Part shown: piece after piece, positions 35,648 through 46,000 of the stretch
Layout: the number at the start of each line of letters is the position of its first letter
Position numbering within the stretch: the first letter of the stretch is position 1
Source of the DNA: Candidatus Poribacteria bacterium
GTDB lineage: Bacteria > Poribacteria > WGA-4E > WGA-3G
Assembly: GCA_958295945.1 (NCBI GenBank)
Contig: OY282386.1
Span: 2,555,864 to 2,619,863, forward strand
DNA length: 64,000 bases
Reading direction: 5' to 3'
Notes under the pieces: model-generated
What the model was told of the DNA's origin: nothing
Seen by the model: only the letters and a program-made list of their open reading frames with translations
Database searches by the model: none
Program-made: the position numbers and the translations under genes

Positions 35648-35689
35648 TTTTTCATCCTTTTTAGACATGGAACTCATATTGAGTAACCT

Positions 35690-36142
35690 CTAAGATTCAC
35701 TGAAAGTTACCCGATAGTTTATCATTGAATATGCTAAATTGCGAAAACCTAAACGGGTTTCTTTGAGTTTATCATAACTTAGGACGAGTCTCCGGTAAGT
35801 ATCTGGTTTCCAACCAAAAGTTCGTTCCACTTTATATCGGTCTTTGTCCATTTCTTTATTAAACCAACGAAACTTGCGAGCAATCACAATAGGTTCTTTT
35901 GCATTCCGGCGGTTCGGGTAGATCACCGGAAGCAAACCTTGTTCTTTGATAAGTTTATGATTCGCTTTAGAGTCAAAACCAGAATCCAGTGTTAGAGCAG
36001 AACCGCTCAGATCCAAGCCAATCCGATGGCTAAAGGTGATGAGCTCGCTGAACACTTCGGGCAGAATCGTTGTATCGTGTTCATTAACAGGTTTGACCGT
36101 TATCGGTCCAATGATGAACCCTTGATTGTCAGTGATGGTCAA
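35690..36142 (-). CDS. IS5/IS427-type transposase, OrfB (catalytic C-terminal part)
   Basis: 150 codons containing the DDE landmarks of IS5-type transposases: ALTLDSGFDSKANHKL with the second Asp and KVERTFGWKPDTYRRL with the Glu. The first Asp is in the overlapping upstream frame (LHGDGSNTV). The first codon is a TTG without a ribosome site, so it is probably expressed only as the fused product. All three catalytic residues remain, so the fused transposase may be active. Confidence 0.78.
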   Translation of the reverse strand: MTITDNQGFIIGPITVKPVNEHDTTILPEVFSELITFSHRIGLDLSGSALTLDSGFDSKANHKLIKEQGLLPVIYPNRRNAKEPIVIARKFRWFNKEMDKDRYKVERTFGWKPDTYRRLVLSYDKLKETRLGFRNLAYSMINYRVTFSES

Positions 36143-36561
36143 CTCTTTTTCACCTTTCTGATGTTTGTGTCCTGAATAACCGATGCCGTCTCCCCTTTTT
36201 TTACGACGGTATTTGACCCATCACCATGAAGTTGAGTGGTGTCAAGTTGGTCGGTATCATGAAGATGTATTATAGATGCTTCAAAAAGTTTATCATAAGA
36301 ACCATCTTTTGACCACCGATTATGCCATTTATAGACGTTAGACCAATGGAGTTCATTACGCCGGGTTCGGAGTTGATTCCATTGAATACCCGTATGTCCA
36401 ACATAGAGGATATAGTTGAATATCTTGTAAGGGGAAAGTTTCGGTTTTGGACCTTTTATGCGTTTTGATAAATGTGGTAAAATATATTGGTTGAAATCCT
36501 TACGCGAAACCTGCTTCGGAATACCTTTATATTTTGGCTGTTTTTGTCCTTTGTCTGTCAT
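36139..36561 (-). CDS. IS5/IS427-type transposase, OrfA (N-terminal part)
   Basis: 140 codons from an ATG at 36561 following AGAGG. It holds the helix-turn-helix-like start (KQVSRKDFNQYILPHL) and the family pattern KIFNYILYVGHTGIQWNQL, ending with the first catalytic Asp region (TTQLHGDGSNTVV). Seven A followed by G (A AAA AAG slippery type) occurs just after this, near 36190-36197; a -1 shift there would continue as RGDGIGYSGHKHQKGEK into OrfB. Without the shift the frame ends 25 codons later. Confidence 0.78.
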   Translation of the reverse strand: MTDKGQKQPKYKGIPKQVSRKDFNQYILPHLSKRIKGPKPKLSPYKIFNYILYVGHTGIQWNQLRTRRNELHWSNVYKWHNRWSKDGSYDKLFEASIIHLHDTDQLDTTQLHGDGSNTVVKKGETASVIQDTNIRKVKKS

Positions 36562-36862
36562 AATAACACCTCTCAACAATATGAATAAATATAAAAAACA
36601 TGAACGAATATCTGAAGTATAAATAAAAGGACGTAAAGTATCCCTTTTCTTTCCCTATTTTACCACATCTTTATGTTTTACTCAATATGAGTTCATGTCT
36701 AAATTCAAATTATTTAACTCCGAATTTGGACGCTCAACGTCCTATAGTTTTAAAGTATACAAGGATTTACTGAAAATCTCAAGATAATTCAAAACAAATT
36801 TTTGAAATGTGGAAATAATTGCAACTGGACTATAAATCTTGAAAAATCCTGTAAATATTTGA

Positions 36863-36993
36863 GGGTGTGTAAAGTTTTCGGCATTAACCGCCAAATTCAT
36901 TGTCCGAAGGATCTCCGAATCCCGACAGTTCGCGATTCGGAGATCGCTCCTACAGGATGTCTGTGTCCATTTTGCCCAAAACTTTACACACCC
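36863..36993. mobile_element. MITE-family A element, 131 bp
   Basis: Ends GGGTGTGTAAAGTTTTCGGC and, on the other strand, GGGTGTGTAAAGTTTTGGGC. AATATTTGA flanks it directly on both sides (36854-36862 and 36994-37002), a perfect 9-bp target duplication. The interior is a palindrome GATCTCCGAATC...GATTCGGAGATC (36910-36945). No gene. Confidence 0.82.
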
Positions 36994-37009
36994 AATATTT
37001 GAAAAAAGT

Positions 37010-37038
37010 TTGACATTCACAGAAATTTGTGTTATACT
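37010..37038 (+). promoter_or_regulatory. Strong sigma-70-type promoter
   Basis: TTGACA (37010-37015), 17-base spacer, TATACT (37033-37038). It begins 8 bases after the target duplication of the MITE. The first clear gene downstream starts only at 37505; a small frame at 37107-37252 with a GGGAG ahead could be its first product, but this is uncertain. Confidence 0.6.
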
Positions 37039-37106
37039 ATGAGCGTGGGTGCATAGTTTGAGCAAAAAACCACGTTACCGTATATCTTGGGAGTTAACTT
37101 TAACAA

Positions 37107-37434
37107 TGAAAAGTCTAAAAATAAAATTGCTAATCAGAAATGAACACACCAGATGCCTATCATCTGATCGAGGTTTTTGTGTCCGCAGTGCTTTTGAGAC
37201 TAATTTTAACTATAAGTTAACTGCCTACCCCCCCCCGATTTACATTCGTTAATTCATACATATTACAAGGTCTTATTGCAGTCTGGACATGCTGCGATAT
37301 TTTTGTGCCTGCACGCTGGCTTTGCCCCGTTGCGGGCTTTTGTTGTTGCATTGGGGATGCCCCGATGCTTGGATTCTGCTTGCGCGCGGTGCGTGAAAGC
37401 AGGATATTATAGGTAAAACGGTCAAGATTTGTTC
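37107..37434. other. Gap without a convincing gene
   Basis: It holds a short plus-strand frame (37107-37252, start MKSLKIKLLIRNEH), a run of nine C near 37229, and a GC-richer segment at 37280-37400 that is open in both directions but has no recognisable product. It may be a gene remnant. Confidence 0.3.
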
Positions 37435-37463
37435 TTGACATTTTCTGTGTGTATTGATATTCT
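37435..37463 (+). promoter_or_regulatory. Sigma-70-type promoter of the glycosylation-locus operon
   Basis: TTGACA (37435-37440), 17-base spacer, TATTCT (37458-37463), placing the transcript start about 35 bases before the ATG at 37505. Confidence 0.65.
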
Positions 37464-37504
37464 AACAATTTAACACCCGTCCGGGTAAGGAAAATTAAAG
37501 AGTT

Positions 37505-38431
37505 ATGTTGAAAAAAAACACGTTAAAAATATCGGCAATTCTGTTCTTTGTTATGTCTATTATCTATATGGCACAAACCCCGCAAGGTTTCGGACATTCA
37601 CCGAGCCAGCATAATCCTAATTTTTATGTCAACAGCAACGGTGATGCTACTGATGTTGATAGAACAGATGCAAATGGAAATAAACTCGATGTAAATGGGA
37701 CTCAATTAAACGACCCAAGAACCATTATTGACTATAGCGGCTCTACTGGAGACAAAATCCATAACGCATCTTCTTGGGCACGCAGATATTACGCTTCAAA
37801 CGTGGTAAGTGCAAATCATGCCAACGATAGTGAAACAGAGCTGATAATTGGTGCTAAAATAGACTTATCTGTATCTGCTGGATGCACTTCTGTCAGTGGA
37901 AGCGTGTCCCCTTCCCTCACAGATAATGGGGGTATAAGCACAAGTTGGATATGGAGGGGCAAAGCGTCTTTAACACTAAGAATTGAGAAAAATGAAAATG
38001 CCCATAGTGTGCTTAGGCACGGGCGTTTTCCATGGATCTATTATTGTCATGAGGTTGTAGCTGAAAAATCCAACGTTAAAACAGGGCTTAAGAATATTGG
38101 AATTAAGATAGTACCAGGATCAGAATCAGATACGGAAAGTAATGAATTCGGTTTGGAACTTTCAGAAGGTCCAGCAAAAGTCAATGCTAAATGGAGTCGA
38201 TCAAAAACCAAAGTGATAAGCGATATATATTCCAAAATCACAGGGATAAGTGCTTCATTAAATAGTACTGCTTATTATAATTATTTTTACCTCTCCTACC
38301 AACAGGTCAAAACTGCGAAGGCCACTGGTCATCTGGGTGAATCAGCAATAGATCCTGATGATATCAGCACTTGGTATAATCCAGAACATGAATGTAACGG
38401 CGGGTTCGGTTCAGGTTCTCCAGTGCATTAA
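37505..38431 (+). CDS. Secreted protein of unknown function
   Basis: A 308-residue protein with a signal peptide (ISAILFFVMSIIYMAQT, cleavage near 30). The mature N-terminus has an Asp/Asn-rich stretch (NSNGDATDVDRTDANGNKLD) like a loose calcium-binding loop, then a beta-rich body (LSVSAGCTSVSGSVSPSL, RGKASLTLRIEKNENAHS) with four cysteines that could form two disulfides. No family is recognised. It has its own promoter and is followed by a hairpin at 38448-38491, then by the membrane-anchored protein gene, so it may be transcribed with the downstream block or end at that hairpin. N-x-S/T sequons (NGT, NAS, NST) occur in it, so it could be a substrate of the oligosaccharyltransferase encoded nearby (speculation). 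Confidence 0.75.
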   Translation: MLKKNTLKISAILFFVMSIIYMAQTPQGFGHSPSQHNPNFYVNSNGDATDVDRTDANGNKLDVNGTQLNDPRTIIDYSGSTGDKIHNASSWARRYYASNVVSANHANDSETELIIGAKIDLSVSAGCTSVSGSVSPSLTDNGGISTSWIWRGKASLTLRIEKNENAHSVLRHGRFPWIYYCHEVVAEKSNVKTGLKNIGIKIVPGSESDTESNEFGLELSEGPAKVNAKWSRSKTKVISDIYSKITGISASLNSTAYYNYFYLSYQQVKTAKATGHLGESAIDPDDISTWYNPEHECNGGFGSGSPVH

Positions 38432-38447
38432 CGTAAACCTAACACAC

Positions 38448-38491
38448 GTTCGGTATAAGTATAATGGTACATTTCTATACCTATACCGAAC
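38448..38491 (+). terminator. Hairpin between operon genes
   Basis: GTTCGGTATA pairs with TATACCGAAC (10-bp perfect stem, 24-base loop). There is no T run, so it may be a weak terminator or an attenuator. Confidence 0.4.
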
Positions 38492-38541
38492 ACCACTTTA
38501 TATCACTACACTACATACACAAACAGAAGGAGAAAAAACCT

Positions 38542-39915
38542 ATGAAAAAACAATTAATAATTCTAATCACTTCGTTATTTGTTATCATAATCGGTGTTGT
38601 TTTCTATATGAATATGCAGAAAAAGAAAGTAGAAACTTCTATACTTGAACAAGTTCCCGGTTCTAAATCACATAAACACATAACCTCCGACGGAGAAGTC
38701 GTTCAACATACACATACACCCATACAATCCCCTAAAAGAAATCAGCATAAAAACAAAACCGATCCTCCCCAAGAAACAGTTCCCCCGATACTACGCATCT
38801 GGGAAAACATGGATCTCAACGAAATCAGAAGAAAATATCAACTTTACACTGTCCAAGAAATGATAGAAAAATGGAACGAAGAGTATATCCGACGTATACG
38901 CCCTTATGGCAACTCAAAATCAATAGCATATAACGAAAAAGCAGAAAAACTCTATCCAAAAGAACAATGGCTCCAACGCCTTTTGGATAATGGTTTTCCA
39001 TTTCCAGATGTTGGTTACTATACTGTAGCGTTTAGTACTAGATATAGTGTCATAAAAGCGAAAGAGGGTTTTGAGAATCCTGAAACGAAATCGGAAGTTC
39101 TTAGTGATCATGGTTTACCTGAAGACACAACGTGGGAAGAACTGGAAGATTTCGCCATAAAATTTGATATTGTCTCAATACACAACGAAATACGTGCAGA
39201 AGAAGCAGATCCCTCTGTATTCGGGGGTGTTACAGGTATAGAGGGCGTTTTTACACCCTTCACACCGAATACAGTGCATGTATACATCTCTGAAGATACT
39301 GGTGCAGCCACATTTACAGGCAGAACGTTGACCCAACAGCAAGAAGATGATCTAACGATGTTCGGAGCAGCACCAGAAGGCATCACCGTTGTCTATACGG
39401 ATAAAGAGGGGCATCCATTACCTACCGATGGCAAACCTCGCTTCTATGAACGCCGCATGGCTGCCCTTGAATCCATTGAAACATATATGCAAGAGATGGT
39501 TGCAGAACACGAAAAACTTTTAAACACAAAGCTGCAGCAAACACGCGAAAATACACAAGGACAACAAACACCCTCGGTACAACAAGTGCCTCAAAATCAT
39601 GACCTTCCCCATCTCAGCGATGGGACAGAATCTTCAGTCCCCCAACGCACCCCAAAAACAACTATACCTATGCAGAACATCACCCCAGAGATGTTCCCCA
39701 AAGAACCGCCCTCCTCCAAAAATATGCATAAATGGTTAGAACTGCTGCAAGAGTTGCATGGTGGTGAATTGCCCAGAGACTTAAACATGTTGAAGGAAGC
39801 GTTAACGGAACTTGAGGCGATACGTCAAGCTGCACAAGAAAAACTCGCTCCACGTCCGACACCACCAGATAGACCCAAAATACCGCAACGCACACCGCCA
39901 AATCCCAATAATTAA
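38542..39915 (+). CDS. Membrane-anchored, proline-rich periplasmic protein
   Basis: A 457-residue protein with one N-terminal membrane helix (IILITSLFVIIIGVVFYM, about 5-24) and a linker with His residues (HKHITSDGEVVQHTHTP). The middle (about 80-330) is a mixed alpha/beta domain with acidic charges; the C-terminal 130 residues are Gln/Pro-rich (QQTPSVQQVPQ, PRPTPPDRPKIPQRTPP) and probably disordered. The start at 38542 follows AAGGAGA. The next gene begins 19 bases later. The layout of anchor, His-containing linker and soluble domain is like the 232-residue protein at 7.5-8.3 kb. The function is unknown; its place ahead of the GspC-like and STT3-like genes suggests a periplasmic accessory of the same system. 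Confidence 0.72.
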   Translation: MKKQLIILITSLFVIIIGVVFYMNMQKKKVETSILEQVPGSKSHKHITSDGEVVQHTHTPIQSPKRNQHKNKTDPPQETVPPILRIWENMDLNEIRRKYQLYTVQEMIEKWNEEYIRRIRPYGNSKSIAYNEKAEKLYPKEQWLQRLLDNGFPFPDVGYYTVAFSTRYSVIKAKEGFENPETKSEVLSDHGLPEDTTWEELEDFAIKFDIVSIHNEIRAEEADPSVFGGVTGIEGVFTPFTPNTVHVYISEDTGAATFTGRTLTQQQEDDLTMFGAAPEGITVVYTDKEGHPLPTDGKPRFYERRMAALESIETYMQEMVAEHEKLLNTKLQQTRENTQGQQTPSVQQVPQNHDLPHLSDGTESSVPQRTPKTTIPMQNITPEMFPKEPPSSKNMHKWLELLQELHGGELPRDLNMLKEALTELEAIRQAAQEKLAPRPTPPDRPKIPQRTPPNPNN

Positions 39916-39934
39916 CACGGACGGAGCAACAAAA

Positions 39935-40609
39935 GTGCGCATCGCCATAACTATTTGTTTTACCTCAATTCTGTCACTGTGTGCTATCTTTCTGTTAGCA
40001 TATAAGGGGACACCGCAAAACGCTATCCCCAAAATAACATCAGCGAAACAAAGGACACCTACACCGCAACCCCAAAAGCAGGAAAGTCAACAATCCAGAA
40101 CTCCTGTAGATTTCTACCAAACAATTATTGACAATAACATCTTTAGACCTCTAAACTGGAAACCCCCACAACAGACACCCGATTATAAACTCCTTGGTAC
40201 AACTATCAACACCGACAATACACACAAAACTGCTTATATCATAGATACAAAATCAAACCAATTTCACAACGTGATCACGGGTGATCCCATCGGAGACGCG
40301 ACTGTCCAAAATATCACAGCAAAGAGAGTAATCCTCAATATAAATAAAGGTGAACTCATACTTACTCTCAACAATAACACGTTTCTCAATGCAAAACACA
40401 ATTCACAACCACGTCGCAATGCCACCAGCCTGCCACAGCAAGTAAATCCGCAACCTCAAAACACCACACAGAAAAATAATAACGTCCCAAGAGACCTTCG
40501 AAAAGACGCACTCAATAAATGGCGCGAACATTACACAAAAGAACTTGAATCTATAAGGAAAACACGGCAAGACATGATGGGCAGACTCAAAGACCTTGAC
40601 CAACGTTAA
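39935..40609 (+). CDS. GspC/PilP-like periplasmic protein
   Basis: A 224-residue bitopic protein: N-terminal membrane helix (CFTSILSLCAIFLLAY, about 8-25), a Pro/Gln-rich linker, and a small beta domain (about 65-150) with FYQTIIDNNIFRPLNW, YKLLGTTINTDNTHKTAYII and GDPIGDATVQNITAKRVIL, the pattern of the homology region of type II secretion GspC or of PilP. The C-terminus is a charged coiled stretch. The GTG at 39935 follows GGAG by 8 bases; a longer frame from 39812 overlaps the previous gene and is rejected. No other type II secretion or pilus genes are in the window, so a partner role for the downstream oligosaccharyltransferase or a distant secretion system is possible. Confidence 0.68.
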   Translation: MRIAITICFTSILSLCAIFLLAYKGTPQNAIPKITSAKQRTPTPQPQKQESQQSRTPVDFYQTIIDNNIFRPLNWKPPQQTPDYKLLGTTINTDNTHKTAYIIDTKSNQFHNVITGDPIGDATVQNITAKRVILNINKGELILTLNNNTFLNAKHNSQPRRNATSLPQQVNPQPQNTTQKNNNVPRDLRKDALNKWREHYTKELESIRKTRQDMMGRLKDLDQR

Positions 40610-40637
40610 AACATTACTCTTCAAAACTGATAATAGC

Positions 40638-43073
40638 ATGCAACGTTTACTTCATACGCTTGAAAACCTAACACGCCATACCTATCTATCCCGTATTCTC
40701 TACACGCTATGCCTGCTAAGTCTCCTTACAATTGCTTTCGCTATACGACTACAAGGCAGAGAACGTATTCCAAACGAACAATTCACATCAAATGACGCAT
40801 ATCTATACTATTGGCAAGCAAAAACTATTAGCGAGAACGGATACATCCCCGCTATTGACAAATTCCGATGGCTGCCTAACGGCAGGGATAATGGACAACT
40901 ACTTTCCCTATATTCTTACGTTCTTGCATATATCTATAAAATCATAAATCTGTTCTTTTACAACATAACATTATATCACGTATGTTTATATCTCCCGGTT
41001 ATCTGTTTTATTATAGGACTCGGATTCCTCATAATATTTCTAACAAAGATGTATGGTTTTAACTTTGCGACAATCGTAGCAGTCCTGCTTGCGACCCTCC
41101 CTGGTAGCATAGATAGGTCTCTTATCGGTTTTGCTGATAGAGATGCTTGGTGCTGGATGATCGGTTTGCTTTCAATCATGACATATCTTTGGAAAGAACA
41201 AATGCCACACGGAAGAAAAAGATGGATAGCTACTGTTATTCTCGGATTCATTATATTCTTAGGAGGATTATCTTGGGAAGGATACGGTTTTTTTCTACTC
41301 ATCATCATGTCAGCAGAGATTTGGAAGTTTTGTACAACCGAAAGAAAAGACAATCTACTTGAATATATACTTATGATTGTTATGTTTGTCCCTTGGTTAT
41401 ATCTGATCAGTCCAGCATATCGTAGCGGTTTCGGTTATTCCACACATGTCGGTATGCTCATGTTGGCTCCACCACTTGTAATTCTCTTTCTGAAAAGTAG
41501 TCATTATTTGCTCCTTCGTTTTGTAACAATCCTACAATCTTATTCTAAACGACTCTCTTGGGGATTAACCCTCATGAGTCTTTTTACTGGTTGTATCTAC
41601 ATCTATTTTCAATATGACACCTTTGCAACAACTGCCTTTCCTTTTCAAGAAAATAGATTAATGCAGATCATTCAAGAGTTAGCAGATCCCGATTTAAATT
41701 ATTGGTTTGGTAGATACGGCAGCATTTTTGTTTTAGGTACGCTCGGAATCATTACAGCATCACTGCGGCAATGGAAAGCAAAAGCAGTCATATTGGTTTG
41801 TGCATTGACGTTTCTTTTTTTAACAGTATTTCTGCGATCACCTATGAGTTATCGCTTGAGTTCAAACTTCACAAACATACTTTTTTTATCAACATTACCT
41901 CTAGTCGCAATCGGAATTGCAATCATAGCCACGCGAAAACTAACGACACAAAATGAACTTGTCTTACTGACAACACTTGTTTGGTTTTTTCTATGGGTTA
42001 CCTTATCACGTAGCGGTAAAAGATACGACTTCTTTATTGGGGTGCCGCTATCACTTGGCACTGCATTTCTTCTTAATGAGGTCCTCTCCTTATTCACTGA
42101 TAATAAAGTGCCGATGACAATAAAAGGCATAAATGTCCCCCCGACACTCTTGAAAGTTGTGAGCACCCTTACTATGTTGGCACTTCTGCTATTCTGGAAC
42201 CCTATTGGAGGACATGCAACACGTTCCCTTGAAGTTGCAAAAGTGAAAACATTCTATCCCGAAAACCCAAACATCATGCAAACATATAACTGGGTAAAAA
42301 ATAAGTTAAATACGGATCATATCGTTATGGCAGCCCACTGGGAATATGGTACACAACTCAATGTGCACAGCAATGTGAAGACGATTACAGACCCAGATCA
42401 CTACCTTCCGCATTGGGTGCATCTCTACTATCGTCACCTATATTGTGCACAATCCGAAACTGAAGCATTATATTTTCTAAAAACCCATAACGCAACACAT
42501 CTCATGCTGACCAGCACAGATATAATCGGCGTTGCAGGTAAAGCTTCTTATGTTGGAAGCGACCAATTCTTTGACAGACATTTTAATCTTCACCCACTTT
42601 TGTATTTACCCACGGCACCTGGAACACAATATTCACTTTCACCTCAGAGTCGACCAATACTTGGCACGTTCACACCCTCAACAACATTGAATGCTATTGA
42701 GATTAAAGGGAAATCTCTCGAAAATCTTAGAGTTATCGCACATTTTAAAACAGAAGAAAATATACAACTTCCTTATATTGCTTACCATGGCAGCAAACGT
42801 ATCGTTTCACCACAAACAGTTAACACGAGAAAAGGAGGACTGGTACTTACTTTTGACACAAAACATATTCTTCGTAATGCCTATTACGTTCCTGAAATTG
42901 GATGGAATAGTCTTGCTTTTAAACTATTCATTAGAGGTGAGCACTCTGAAGCATTTGATAACATTTATACCAACAACTCAAAAGAAAATGATAGACCGCC
43001 GGATGTACAAATTTGGAGAATTAAATATCCGGAACATATAAAAACACACCCAAAATATCTTGAAACAGAATAA
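40638..43073 (+). CDS. STT3/PglB-like oligosaccharyltransferase
   Basis: An 811-residue protein with about 12-13 membrane helices in the first 500 residues and a soluble periplasmic C-terminus. The first acidic motif of the external loop is TSNDAYLYYW (about 50-59, compare PglB TNDGYA), the second DxD-like motif is GFADRDAW (about 164-171), and HWEYG at 567-571 stands where STT3/PglB proteins have WWDYG, in the context KTITDPDHYLPHWV. This is how STT3 enzymes move a lipid-linked glycan onto Asn of exported proteins. Here W-to-H and D-to-E changes are notable. I chose ATG 40638 over a TTG at 40596; neither has a strong ribosome site. It is followed 16 bases later by a dolichol-phosphate-type GT2. 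Confidence 0.82.
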   Translation: MQRLLHTLENLTRHTYLSRILYTLCLLSLLTIAFAIRLQGRERIPNEQFTSNDAYLYYWQAKTISENGYIPAIDKFRWLPNGRDNGQLLSLYSYVLAYIYKIINLFFYNITLYHVCLYLPVICFIIGLGFLIIFLTKMYGFNFATIVAVLLATLPGSIDRSLIGFADRDAWCWMIGLLSIMTYLWKEQMPHGRKRWIATVILGFIIFLGGLSWEGYGFFLLIIMSAEIWKFCTTERKDNLLEYILMIVMFVPWLYLISPAYRSGFGYSTHVGMLMLAPPLVILFLKSSHYLLLRFVTILQSYSKRLSWGLTLMSLFTGCIYIYFQYDTFATTAFPFQENRLMQIIQELADPDLNYWFGRYGSIFVLGTLGIITASLRQWKAKAVILVCALTFLFLTVFLRSPMSYRLSSNFTNILFLSTLPLVAIGIAIIATRKLTTQNELVLLTTLVWFFLWVTLSRSGKRYDFFIGVPLSLGTAFLLNEVLSLFTDNKVPMTIKGINVPPTLLKVVSTLTMLALLLFWNPIGGHATRSLEVAKVKTFYPENPNIMQTYNWVKNKLNTDHIVMAAHWEYGTQLNVHSNVKTITDPDHYLPHWVHLYYRHLYCAQSETEALYFLKTHNATHLMLTSTDIIGVAGKASYVGSDQFFDRHFNLHPLLYLPTAPGTQYSLSPQSRPILGTFTPSTTLNAIEIKGKSLENLRVIAHFKTEENIQLPYIAYHGSKRIVSPQTVNTRKGGLVLTFDTKHILRNAYYVPEIGWNSLAFKLFIRGEHSEAFDNIYTNNSKENDRPPDVQIWRIKYPEHIKTHPKYLETE

Positions 43074-43089
43074 CAACAGTTGAATTCTT

Positions 43090-43827
43090 ATGAAAAACGA
43101 AAATGTTGAAATTTCTATTGTCATGCCGTGCCTCAACGAAGAAGAAACGCTTGGTATCTGTATTGAAAAGGCACAATCTACACTGAAATCTTTAGGTATT
43201 CAAGGCGAGGTGATCGTAGCTGATAACGGTTCTACCGATAATTCTGTTGTGATCACTGAACGACTCGGTGCGCGCGTCGTCCACCAGTCCATACGCGGTT
43301 ATGGCGCAGCATACCTCGCGGGGTTCGCCTCGGCAAAAGGTCAATATATTATCATGGGCGACTCCGATGATACTTATGATTTCACAGATTTAGAGCGGTT
43401 CATTACACCCCTTCAAAATGGATACGACTTCGTTATCGGAAATCGGTTCAAAGGGACAATCCTTCCGGGGGCGATGCCGTGGGCAAGACGTTACATCGGA
43501 AACCCGATCTTGTCAGGGATGCTTCGTATCCTTTTCGGCACGTACATATCAGATTCACACTGTGGCATGCGATCATTCACCGCAGATGCGTACAAGCGAA
43601 TGGGACTGCAAACAACCGGGATGGAGTTTGCTTCAGAAATGGTTATTAAGGCAGTGCAAACAAATCTGAAAATACTTGAAATTCCTATCATCTATCACCC
43701 TCGCGGGGGCGAGTCTAAACTCAATGCTGTTAGAGACGCATGGCGACATATCCGATTTATGCTGAAATATAAACTCATCAACCAGACAAAGCATGATAAG
43801 CAATCAACAACTCCCACAGATTCCTAA
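43090..43827 (+). CDS. Dolichol-phosphate-mannosyltransferase-like GT2
   Basis: A 245-residue family-2 glycosyltransferase: ISIVMPCLNEEETLGICIEK at the start (nucleotide-sugar site), VIVADNGSTDNS, GYGAAYLAGFASAKGQYIIM, and the DxD-type motif GDSDDTYDFTDL. The catalytic region SDSHCGMRSF and IYHPRGGESKLNA at the end match polyprenyl-phosphate sugar synthases (DPM1-type without membrane helices). It probably charges a lipid carrier with a sugar on the cytoplasmic face, supplying the adjacent oligosaccharyltransferase (inference). The start has no clear ribosome site; coupling to the upstream gene is likely. Confidence 0.87.
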   Translation: MKNENVEISIVMPCLNEEETLGICIEKAQSTLKSLGIQGEVIVADNGSTDNSVVITERLGARVVHQSIRGYGAAYLAGFASAKGQYIIMGDSDDTYDFTDLERFITPLQNGYDFVIGNRFKGTILPGAMPWARRYIGNPILSGMLRILFGTYISDSHCGMRSFTADAYKRMGLQTTGMEFASEMVIKAVQTNLKILEIPIIYHPRGGESKLNAVRDAWRHIRFMLKYKLINQTKHDKQSTTPTDS

Positions 43828-43918
43828 GAAACCGATGGATCGCCTCCTTGAGGACGGACGGTTTGCCAAAGCGAAAAAGCACATTCACCGATGGAAACTC
43901 ATTAGAAAAGAACGTTGA
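43793..43918 (+). pseudogene. Truncated methyltransferase N-terminus (remnant)
   Basis: A 41-codon frame overlapping the end of the GT2 gene in another frame. It contains PMDRLLEDGRFAKAKKHIHR, which looks like the segment that precedes the SAM-binding motif I in many class I methyltransferases, but stops there (KLIRKER) before GxGxG. The rest up to the DUF6785 gene shows no continuation, so the gene seems to have lost its body. Confidence 0.35.
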
Positions 43919-44047
43919 GAGCTTGGATGTAATAACTTATGCATATTTGAAACAGGTCCCTAATTTTGAACGTAATAAAGATTTAGAACATAGTTATAGA
44001 TTATTTCTCCCAAACCCGCTACAAGTCTTTATCATTCAAAATCAATT

Positions 44048-46000
44048 TTGAGATCTACTACCTTACATCAATCAGGCAGCGATGAAGAACGAAGACATCG
44101 CGATCTAACAAGACAGAAACCCCTCCGTTTTGGTGCGACATGGCGTGCTATCTTAATCGGCACCGGTCTCACTATACCCAACGTCTATTGGATTTTAGAT
44201 TCAGCGGGGCAAGGGTACCCAACCACGATTTCGCTCTATTTTAATGTTATTTTCTGCATCTTTGTTCTCACAGGTGCGAATTTGGTATTGAAACAGGTGC
44301 TTCCACGAATTGCCTTTGAACAAGGGGAATTGCTGACTATCTATGTCATGCTTGCAATTGCCTCTTCCTTGGCAGGACACGATGTTCTCCGCGTCTTAAT
44401 TCCGATGATCCCTTACGCTTTCTGGTATGCTACACCAGAGAACGATTGGGTACATCTTTTTCATCGTTATATCCCTGATTGGATAGCAGTTAAAGATAAG
44501 ACATTTCTAACGGAATACTATCGAGGTGAAACGAGTTTATATCAATGGGAAATCATTGAAGGATGGCTGACTACCACCCTAACTTGGGGTGGTTTTTTGT
44601 GCGCGCTGGTGTTCGTCATGGTTTTCATCAATACGCTTGTTCGTAAGCAGTGGACAGAACATGAAAAGCTGAGTTATCCGATTATTCAACTGCCTCTTGA
44701 ACTTACATATATCGGTAGGACGAAACTGCTGACAAATAGGATGATGTGGCTTGGTTTCGGGATTGCGGGTGCGATTGATATTCTGAATGGGTTGCACTTT
44801 CTTTTTCCGAATGTACCGAGTCTGGGTGGTCGTCTTTACGATTTACGTCCATTCTTTACGCAGAAACCGTGGAGTGCGGTCGGATGGACACCTGTTGCGG
44901 TGTTTCCCTTTGCTGTTGGGATGGCGTTCTTTATTCCGTTGGATCTGTCGTTTTCCTGCTGGTTCTTCTATCTGTTTTGGAAGGTAGAACGGATTTTTGG
45001 TGATGCGTTGGGTATTAGAGGGATGCCGAATTTTCCGTTCACCGATGAGCAATCGTTCGGTGCGTATATCGGTCTGTTTGTTATTGCTGTTATTGCTACG
45101 CGAAAACACCTTGCACAAGTGGCACGCAAGATTTTTAGACCGCGGGAAGGTGTCGATTCTGATGAACCGATGTCCTATCGTGGTATGGTCCTTTGTCTTA
45201 TCGGTAGCCTTTTGTTTATTGCAATCTTTTGCAACGCTGCGGGTATGTCAATGTGGGCAATAATAGTTTTCTTTGGTATATACTATGCAATTTCTACTGC
45301 TGTAACCCGCATGCGTGCTGAACTTGGATCACCTGTGCATGATTTGCATTTCATCGGACCGGATGAGATGATGCCTCGTATCTTCGGGACACGTCTACTT
45401 GGCCCGCAAAACCTGACGATGTTGGCGTATCTGTTCTCATTCAATCGTGCATATCGTGGTCATCCGATGCCACATATCCTGGAAGGTTTTAAACTTGCTG
45501 AACGGACACGAATTTCCAATCGTGGACTTCTCATTGCCATGTGTGTGGCAATTGTTGTTGGGACATTCAGTTCATTTTGGGCATTTTACCACATCTCATA
45601 CATTGAAGGTGCGCGGGATTGGTTTGCTGGTAGACCTTTCAACCGACTTCAGGGTTGGTTGACTTCGCCTAAAGTGCCGGACGTTCCTGCAATTGTTGCC
45701 ATGTGTGTCGGTTTTCTGATAACAGGATTCTTGATGCTTATGCGAATACGTCTGTTTTGGTGGCCCTTTCATCCCGCGGGGTTTGCGATTTCAAGTAGTT
45801 GGTCTATGAATGTGTTCTGGTTTTCAATATTTGTCAGTTCCGTTATCAAGTGGATTATTCTAAGGCAAGGTGGGATGAATCTGCATCGTAAATTTATTCC
45901 ATTTTTCCTTGGGTTGATTCTGGGAGAGTTTATTGTTGGGGGTGTGTGGAGTCTTATTGGAATTACAACGAATATACCTATGTATCGGTTTTTGTTTTGA
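44048..46000 (+). CDS. Large polytopic membrane protein (DUF6785/DUF6784-like)
   Basis: A 650-residue protein with about 14 membrane segments; typical patterns are LLTIYVMLAIASSLAGHDVL, EHEKLSYPIIQLPLELTY, FTDEQSFGAYIGLFVIAVI and MRAELGSPVHDLHFIGPDEM. I recognise this as the DUF6785 kind seen in Planctomycetes and Poribacteria; the function is unknown, perhaps transport. The open frame begins at a TTG (44048) without a good ribosome site; the segment just upstream (43828-44047) looks degraded, so the true N-terminus is uncertain. It stands next to the glycosylation block but is not clearly part of it. Confidence 0.78.
   Translation: MRSTTLHQSGSDEERRHRDLTRQKPLRFGATWRAILIGTGLTIPNVYWILDSAGQGYPTTISLYFNVIFCIFVLTGANLVLKQVLPRIAFEQGELLTIYVMLAIASSLAGHDVLRVLIPMIPYAFWYATPENDWVHLFHRYIPDWIAVKDKTFLTEYYRGETSLYQWEIIEGWLTTTLTWGGFLCALVFVMVFINTLVRKQWTEHEKLSYPIIQLPLELTYIGRTKLLTNRMMWLGFGIAGAIDILNGLHFLFPNVPSLGGRLYDLRPFFTQKPWSAVGWTPVAVFPFAVGMAFFIPLDLSFSCWFFYLFWKVERIFGDALGIRGMPNFPFTDEQSFGAYIGLFVIAVIATRKHLAQVARKIFRPREGVDSDEPMSYRGMVLCLIGSLLFIAIFCNAAGMSMWAIIVFFGIYYAISTAVTRMRAELGSPVHDLHFIGPDEMMPRIFGTRLLGPQNLTMLAYLFSFNRAYRGHPMPHILEGFKLAERTRISNRGLLIAMCVAIVVGTFSSFWAFYHISYIEGARDWFAGRPFNRLQGWLTSPKVPDVPAIVAMCVGFLITGFLMLMRIRLFWWPFHPAGFAISSSWSMNVFWFSIFVSSVIKWIILRQGGMNLHRKFIPFFLGLILGEFIVGGVWSLIGITTNIPMYRFLF

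Follow-up and report, generated by a model that had tools for sequence, protein, structure and literature searches.

For the N-glycosylation sequon (i.e., N-x-S/T), the WWD motif of oligosaccharyltransferases (OSTs) is regarded as the universal reader. More specifically, it hydrogen-bonds the Ser or Thr at position +2 of the sequon (PMC7226087), and among inactive PglB clones, substitutions in the WWDYG segment were found, including W457S, D459V and Y460N (PMC3527161). Moreover, OST paralogues within one organism are said always to have the same pocket type, a rule that was formulated for its DK/MI part (PMC3703281). Here, an OST-like gene and its four co-directional neighbours were examined in a 64,000-nucleotide stretch of a Candidatus Poribacteria genome (contig OY282386.1; this whole stretch is referred to as the window). 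Judging from sequence, we lean towards the view that this locus belongs to a Poribacteria-specific family of exchangeable cassettes for protein glycosylation, each dedicated to its own cargo, in which the acceptor pocket would have moved off the classical sequon.

The enzyme family and its WWDYG-equivalent motif

An earlier note, made from the letters of the window alone, had proposed an STT3/PglB-like OST, and this assignment was upheld by Pfam, NCBIfam, structure prediction and Foldseek alike. The window enzyme matched the STT3 family of Pfam (PF02516) at 51 bits (cut-off 24.5) and scored 55 bits against the archaeal STT3 subfamily model of NCBIfam (TIGR04154; cut-off 450). Its AlphaFold2 model, made from 50 family members (predicted local distance difference test score, pLDDT, of 87.5; predicted template modelling score, pTM, of 0.87), displayed the OST fold, i.e., a multi-transmembrane (multi-TM) domain plus a C-terminal periplasmic domain. 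In the Foldseek search of the PDB, ranks 1-19 were all AglB, PglB or eukaryotic STT3 structures (E 2e-16 to 5e-11), followed by DPY19 C-mannosyltransferases at ranks 20-22. Profile and structure searches both pointed to an OST, and not to an unrelated GT-C family (such as O-antigen ligase or DUF2206), the alternative that the earlier note had named.

The catalytic Asp, DxD, Glu and Arg were all retained in the window enzyme. Across the family, catalytic residues and motifs were counted over 143 distinct full-length members: both Asp residues of DxD, the TIXE-type Glu and the second Arg of SRxxKRYD were each found in 143/143, and the first Asp (in external loop 1, EL1) in 140/142. By these features, the window enzyme is a true homologue of STT3/AglB/PglB-fold OSTs with an intact metal-binding catalytic centre. 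The second PF02516 match in the genome (L002, 646 amino acids) was set aside, since by its sequence it looks like a GT-C of the PMT/ArnT type.

The family profile placed an xWxYG segment directly on the WWDYG motif of yeast STT3 (PDB 2LGZ). This segment reads HWEYG in the window, and WWD was seen in none of the 143 relatives (0/143), among which 65 versions of the motif were encountered. Position 1 was taken by N, H, D, P, R, S and others, but never by Trp; position 2 was Trp in 140/143; position 3 varied between S, G, N, D, I, E, T, R and others; position 4 was Tyr in 88/143; and position 5 was Gly throughout (143/143). Most versions were stable inside clades (PWSYG, DWIHG, RWGFG, NWSFG), and five of the eight more distant Poribacteria STT3 proteins that formed the outgroup retained WWDYG. 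The stretch corresponding to the DK/MI motif (TSTDIIGVAGK in the window), compared without structural superposition, was variable and gapped across relatives.

The classical N-x-S/T glycosylation that the earlier note had read into the locus was not supported as stated, given this HWEYG motif, the lack of WWD in all 143 members and sequons at chance level in the first gene. Indeed, the four N-x-S/T sequons of that gene compare with a mean of 4.3 in shuffled sequences (P=0.66), and their number ranged from none to five or six among its homologues; being neither above chance nor conserved, they were dropped as evidence for glycosylation.

All named relatives of the enzyme were found in Candidatus Poribacteria genomes, with a close relative (E<=1e-60) in 51 of the 83 genomes of the class and 6 of its 20 genera; no relative turned up in the viral contigs searched. 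Copy number was patchy, ranging from zero in some species of the same genus to as many as 23 matching stretches in a single genome when fragments are counted, and 11 full-length copies were read in each of the genomes G004 and G023. Paralogues inside one genome nearly all differed in the WWDYG part of the pocket. Since the closed 6.66-Mb chromosome of G080 carries six full-length copies with six different motifs, this paralogy is not explained by binning errors. Within the open-access literature, OSTs and glycosylation were absent from the Poribacteria genome papers searched, and no match was obtained for Poribacteria combined with oligosaccharyltransferase.

Organisation, insertion and exchange of the cassette

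The cassette comprises the following features:

36790-44040, + strand: whole inserted cassette (bounds good to a few tens of bases)
37052-37371, + strand: conserved non-coding cassette leader, by nucleotide identity to other cassette leaders
37505-38431, + strand: first gene, secreted cargo candidate of 308 amino acids with a signal-like N-terminal segment; homologues in sister cassettes are 22-65% identical
38542-39915, + strand: Pro-rich N-anchored adaptor candidate (PRO) of 457 amino acids, refined ATG start
39935-40609, + strand: N-anchored protein of 224 amino acids with a GspC homology-region-like domain, refined GTG start
40638-43073, + strand: STT3/AglB/PglB-fold OST homologue of 811 amino acids, refined ATG start (in-frame TTG upstream at 40596)
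42336-42350, + strand: HWEYG codons, WWDYG-equivalent by hidden Markov model (HMM) alignment to yeast STT3 WWDYG
43090-43827, + strand: GT2 of the AglJ / dolichyl-phosphate hexosyltransferase type, 245 amino acids (Pfam GT2, E=6e-28)
43808-43957, + strand: decayed methyltransferase gene with an internal deletion plus one stop

All five co-directional genes of the earlier note were confirmed; the gaps of 16-28 bases that it reported hold for the last four (19, 28 and 16 bases), whereas the first gene sits 110 bases further upstream.

The first gene gave no match above cut-off in Pfam or NCBIfam. The Pro-rich adaptor consists of a TM helix, a linker, a helical domain with a small beta part, a coiled helix and a Pro-rich tail (AlphaFold2 model, pLDDT 78.8). 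A search of the PDB gave no match at E<=0.001, and no fold was assigned to it; 91 open reading frames (ORFs) were gathered into its family by iterative HMM search. The proposed GspC/PilP-like identity of the next protein stood in part: residues 117-229 matched the NCBIfam model GspC_delta (NF041515) at E=1.7e-8, but at 34.6 bits against a cut-off of 150, and Pfam T2SSC (PF11356) scored 11.8 bits (cut-off 27). Of the neighbours examined, none was recognised as a type II secretion gene, and the idea of an STT3 gene inside a type II secretion operon was abandoned when the repeated neighbours proved to be respiratory complex I subunits.

The GT2 came closest to the NCBIfam model of AglJ (TIGR04182; 147.5 bits, below the cut-off of 325), and scored 95.6 bits, also below cut-off, against the halobacterial dolichyl-phosphate hexose transferase model NF041391. 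Among 21 relatives, every strong homologue of it was located no further than about 2 kb from an STT3 gene, and it is probably the enzyme making the lipid-linked sugar donor. Across the cassettes with this GT2, identities were 72-86% for the GT2 itself, 44-69% for the STT3 protein, no more than 67% for the Pro-rich protein, approximately 40% for the GspC-like protein and no more than 65% for the cargo, where it was related at all. The donor side is thus conserved, and the acceptor side diverse. In sister cassettes, a methyltransferase gene follows the GT2. In the window, according to tblastn, the equivalents of L029 methyltransferase residues 6-31 and 167-191 have been joined, with one stop, and the stretch missing there is present in L029, L039, L087 and L093.

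The cassette is an insertion of approximately 7.2 kb (window ~36790-44040), since the segment with the cytochrome c and PhyH-like genes meets the DUF6785 gene almost directly in six sister genomes. More specifically, comparison of short flanks from these genomes (L321, L324, L325, L327, L329 and L337) revealed window sequence up to 35661-35669 joined to DUF6785 sequence from 44040-44132, with little in between; L321, L324 and L327 additionally showed a piece ending at 36789. A seventh genome (G017; L087/L133) carries a different cassette at the same site, with an STT3 protein that is 45% identical and has the motif NWNYG, a cargo ending in five TGDCG repeats and a GT2 that is 86% identical. 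Judged by these alignments, the insertion is absent or replaced at this one site in sister genomes. Besides the cytochrome c, PhyH-like and DUF6785 genes, the flanks in the window hold an insertion sequence (IS) at 35670-36693, which is separate from the cassette insertion; it adjoins the cassette, encodes its transposase in two frames and is absent from the sister genomes.

The leader shared 72-78% nucleotide identity with the leaders of cassettes L029, L030 and L039, the STT3 proteins of which are just 47-67% identical. It belongs to no Rfam family, and the sole Rfam match on the cassette was sub-threshold and discarded as chance. A partial copy of the leader (window 37090-37380, 72% identical) was observed elsewhere in the same genome (L346, G000:C1:102865-103051), and no cassette genes were recognised in its short flanks. 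Different STT3 cassettes were also noticed near the same complex I, TrkH and PNPOx genes in two species (L032 and L043), possibly a second insertion hotspot.

Unconserved neighbours, which the earlier note would have counted as a refutation, were encountered in part: secreted, N-anchored, GspC-like and GT2 genes are again linked to the enzyme in relatives, but it is the enzyme that stays constant, while the upstream cargo changes per locus and the downstream gene alternates. Within range of the 143 enzymes, the survey counted the Pro-rich adaptor 46 times, the GspC-like protein 39 times, a CDP-alcohol phosphatidyltransferase 38 times, a small CxCC protein 33 times, the GT2 26 times and a methyltransferase 18 times, and certain loci carry WD40 and MacB-type proteins in place of these neighbours. 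The downstream slot alternates between GT2, CDP-alcohol phosphotransferase and methyltransferase; its occupation by a CDP-alcohol phosphatidyltransferase (as in L053 and others) suggests an alternative donor lipid or head group. Taken at the level of gene order, a donor-side gene downstream (the GT2 here) is co-transmitted with the upstream genes for the secreted cargo, the N-anchored adaptor and the GspC-like protein.

Further observations concern the small proteins around the enzyme. Single-TM proteins of ~90 amino acids, each containing a basic helix as well as a CxCC motif, immediately precede STT3 in L045, L047, L056, L163, L176, L179, L269 and L281, and CxCC and GspC-like proteins co-occur in just 6/107 loci with enough upstream sequence. 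Cys-rich secreted peptides (e.g., SGCCGGG...) were found with WD40 and MacB/FtsX-like genes beside STT3 in L034, L035, L037, L043 and L126, where several of the STT3 proteins are of the NWDYG type. Finally, secreted proteins in L063, L066, L102, L103 and L106, several of them adjoining an STT3 of the canonical WWDYG type, share a C-terminal LTTxWGxLK, possibly a sorting or acceptor signal.

Candidate acceptor sites and competing explanations

The small secreted proteins encoded upstream of the enzyme frequently end in repeats, which are the best candidates for acceptor sites in their loci. Some repeats contain Cys, i.e., TGDCG (L087), SGGCDS (L040), SGGCGS (L050), SGSCDS (L051, L254, L256), SGGCNS (L262), EECGS (L074) and EECGN (L039), and others Asn, i.e., GGPND (L070), GGND (L124, L142, L169), EEND (L130) and NSSG (L068, L033). 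By one fixed set of criteria, tails of this kind were present in 29/371 secreted ORFs upstream, as against 0/232 in random Poribacteria DNA (400 kb). The p-value of 6e-7 is descriptive, since the tails were already known when the criteria were drawn up and since the 29 include some Cys-rich proteins of a general kind. In other parts of these loci, 6/938 ORFs qualified, mostly Cys-rich peptides likewise near STT3.

The pairing of motifs with tails tentatively hints at an acceptor code. The group with N-D-x tails (NWGSG and SWGAG enzymes) is closely related to L039 (NWAYG, EECGN tail), and L070 (NWESG) has a GGPND tail, whereas the tail of L150 (NWGYG), to which it is 84% identical, lacks N-D repeats. 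A strict rule, by which Ser, Ala or His at position 4 would go with an N-D tail and Tyr with a Cys tail, was weakened by L268 (both Cys and N-D-S tails) and by a weak case in L212, and was kept only as a hint.

In the proposed mechanism, the GT2 would load a sugar onto polyprenyl phosphate, N-anchored adaptors (the Pro-rich protein, the GspC-like domain or, at other loci, the small CxCC protein) would present the cargo in the periplasm, and the OST would move the lipid-linked sugar to the cargo encoded beside it, at a non-classical site. Each enzyme would then use its own acceptor motif instead of a shared N-x-S/T sequon, as is proposed because the reader of the +2 Ser/Thr was remodelled differently in each clade. 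A more far-reaching version, for which we would claim less than for the cassettes themselves and which is put forward as a possibility, sees a natural OST library, spread through the exchange of cassettes at common chromosomal sites, in which the acceptor code of each enzyme is matched to the one adjoining cargo, including non-N-x-S/T acceptors (N-D-x tails such as EEND and GGND, and possibly Cys in C-x-[STN]).

Several findings weigh against dedicated-cargo cassettes with a displaced acceptor pocket. No adaptor family is universal (Pro-rich 46/143, GspC-like 39/143, CxCC pattern 33/143), cargos with tail repeats occur in only about 20 distinct loci with no acceptor motif apparent elsewhere, the window cargo itself has no repeat tail, and several copies in several genomes are fragments or contain stops. 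Moreover, the variable motif positions change at ordinary rates between close pairs (50th-71st percentile). Positive selection on the motif, for which pairwise contrasts gave average to above-average rates at most, is thus not demonstrated, and relaxed constraint is possible; together with the stability within clades, such rates fit either clade-specific function or relaxed constraint.

These ordinary, not extreme, rates would also suit N-x-S/T glycosylation of the usual kind, with recognition shifted from WWD to the N-anchored adaptors and the motif drifting as it is no longer needed. Such partners are indeed encoded next to the enzyme in the cassettes, and some cargos carry repeated N-S-S (NSSGSNSSG in L068, NSSSGNSSSG in L033) or N-D-S (L268) sites. 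Nevertheless, we deem this unlikely: motif versions are mostly stable within clades, many tails lack N-x-S/T (EEND, GGND, TGDCG), and the second Trp and the Gly are near invariant, implying that the motif loop is still constrained. A smaller chance still is given to enzymes of OST fold that now modify a non-Asn residue, e.g., Cys in C-x-[STGN] tails (S-linkage), or perform other chemistry on a non-protein acceptor. Cys is the sole residue common to tails such as TGDCG, SGGCDS, SGGCGS, EECGS and EECGN, small CxCC proteins adjoin STT3 in 33/143 loci, and the DPY19 C-mannosyltransferases represent an OST-like fold serving another residue; at other loci, however, Asn is the only plausible acceptor in the tail (EEND, GGND), the amide-activating acid pair and the metal ligands are fully retained, and the Cys tails could be accounted for by disulfide or metal binding.

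The truncated and stop-containing copies in several genomes, and the decayed methyltransferase of the window, could finally reflect decaying selfish or accessory islands, in which duplicated STT3 genes are under relaxed selection and many are non-functional. This seems quite improbable when 143 distinct full-length proteins show no variation in their catalytic residues, frames of ~800 codons remain open at 40-60% identity and the GT2 is kept at 72-86% identity.

Significance and relation to known systems

At the sequence level, the Poribacteria depart from WWD as a universal reader, with more than 60 natural pocket variants on an intact catalytic core, and they strain the rule of a shared pocket type among OST paralogues of the same organism. 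If the enzymes are active, the acceptor choice of OSTs would become directly testable by exchanging five residues or whole cassettes, and the family could be a source of orthogonal enzymes for glycoprotein engineering, while drawing attention to an unstudied system of surface modification in a dominant symbiont of sponges.

Compared with known systems, the Poribacteria family resembles the STT3/AglB/PglB OSTs (PF02516; PDB 7e9s, 3rce, 5ogl, 6s7o) in its full-length fold, EL1 Asp, DxD, TIXE-type Glu, conserved Arg and alignable motif region, although the identity in full-length structure alignments with the window enzyme is just 11-14%. It differs from them by its 65 WWDYG variants, its many paralogues per genome and the secreted cargo neighbouring each, and substitutions at positions that inactivate PglB are the norm. 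Several OST paralogues per genome are also known from Archaeoglobus (AglB-L, -S1 and -S2), whereas almost all same-genome paralogues of Poribacteria are distinct in the WWDYG part of the pocket. The closest counterparts of the cassette GT2 are Haloferax AglJ and the halobacterial dolichyl-phosphate hexose transferases (TIGR04182, NF041391), but it falls under both cut-offs, measures 245 amino acids and adjoins STT3 cassettes in Poribacteria. The third cassette protein shares with GspC of type II secretion one domain that matches GspC_delta, albeit under the curated cut-off. Finally, unlike a Campylobacter-type pgl locus, the window cassette has a single GT2, with no clustered flippase, initiating transferase or several glycosyltransferases beside the OST.
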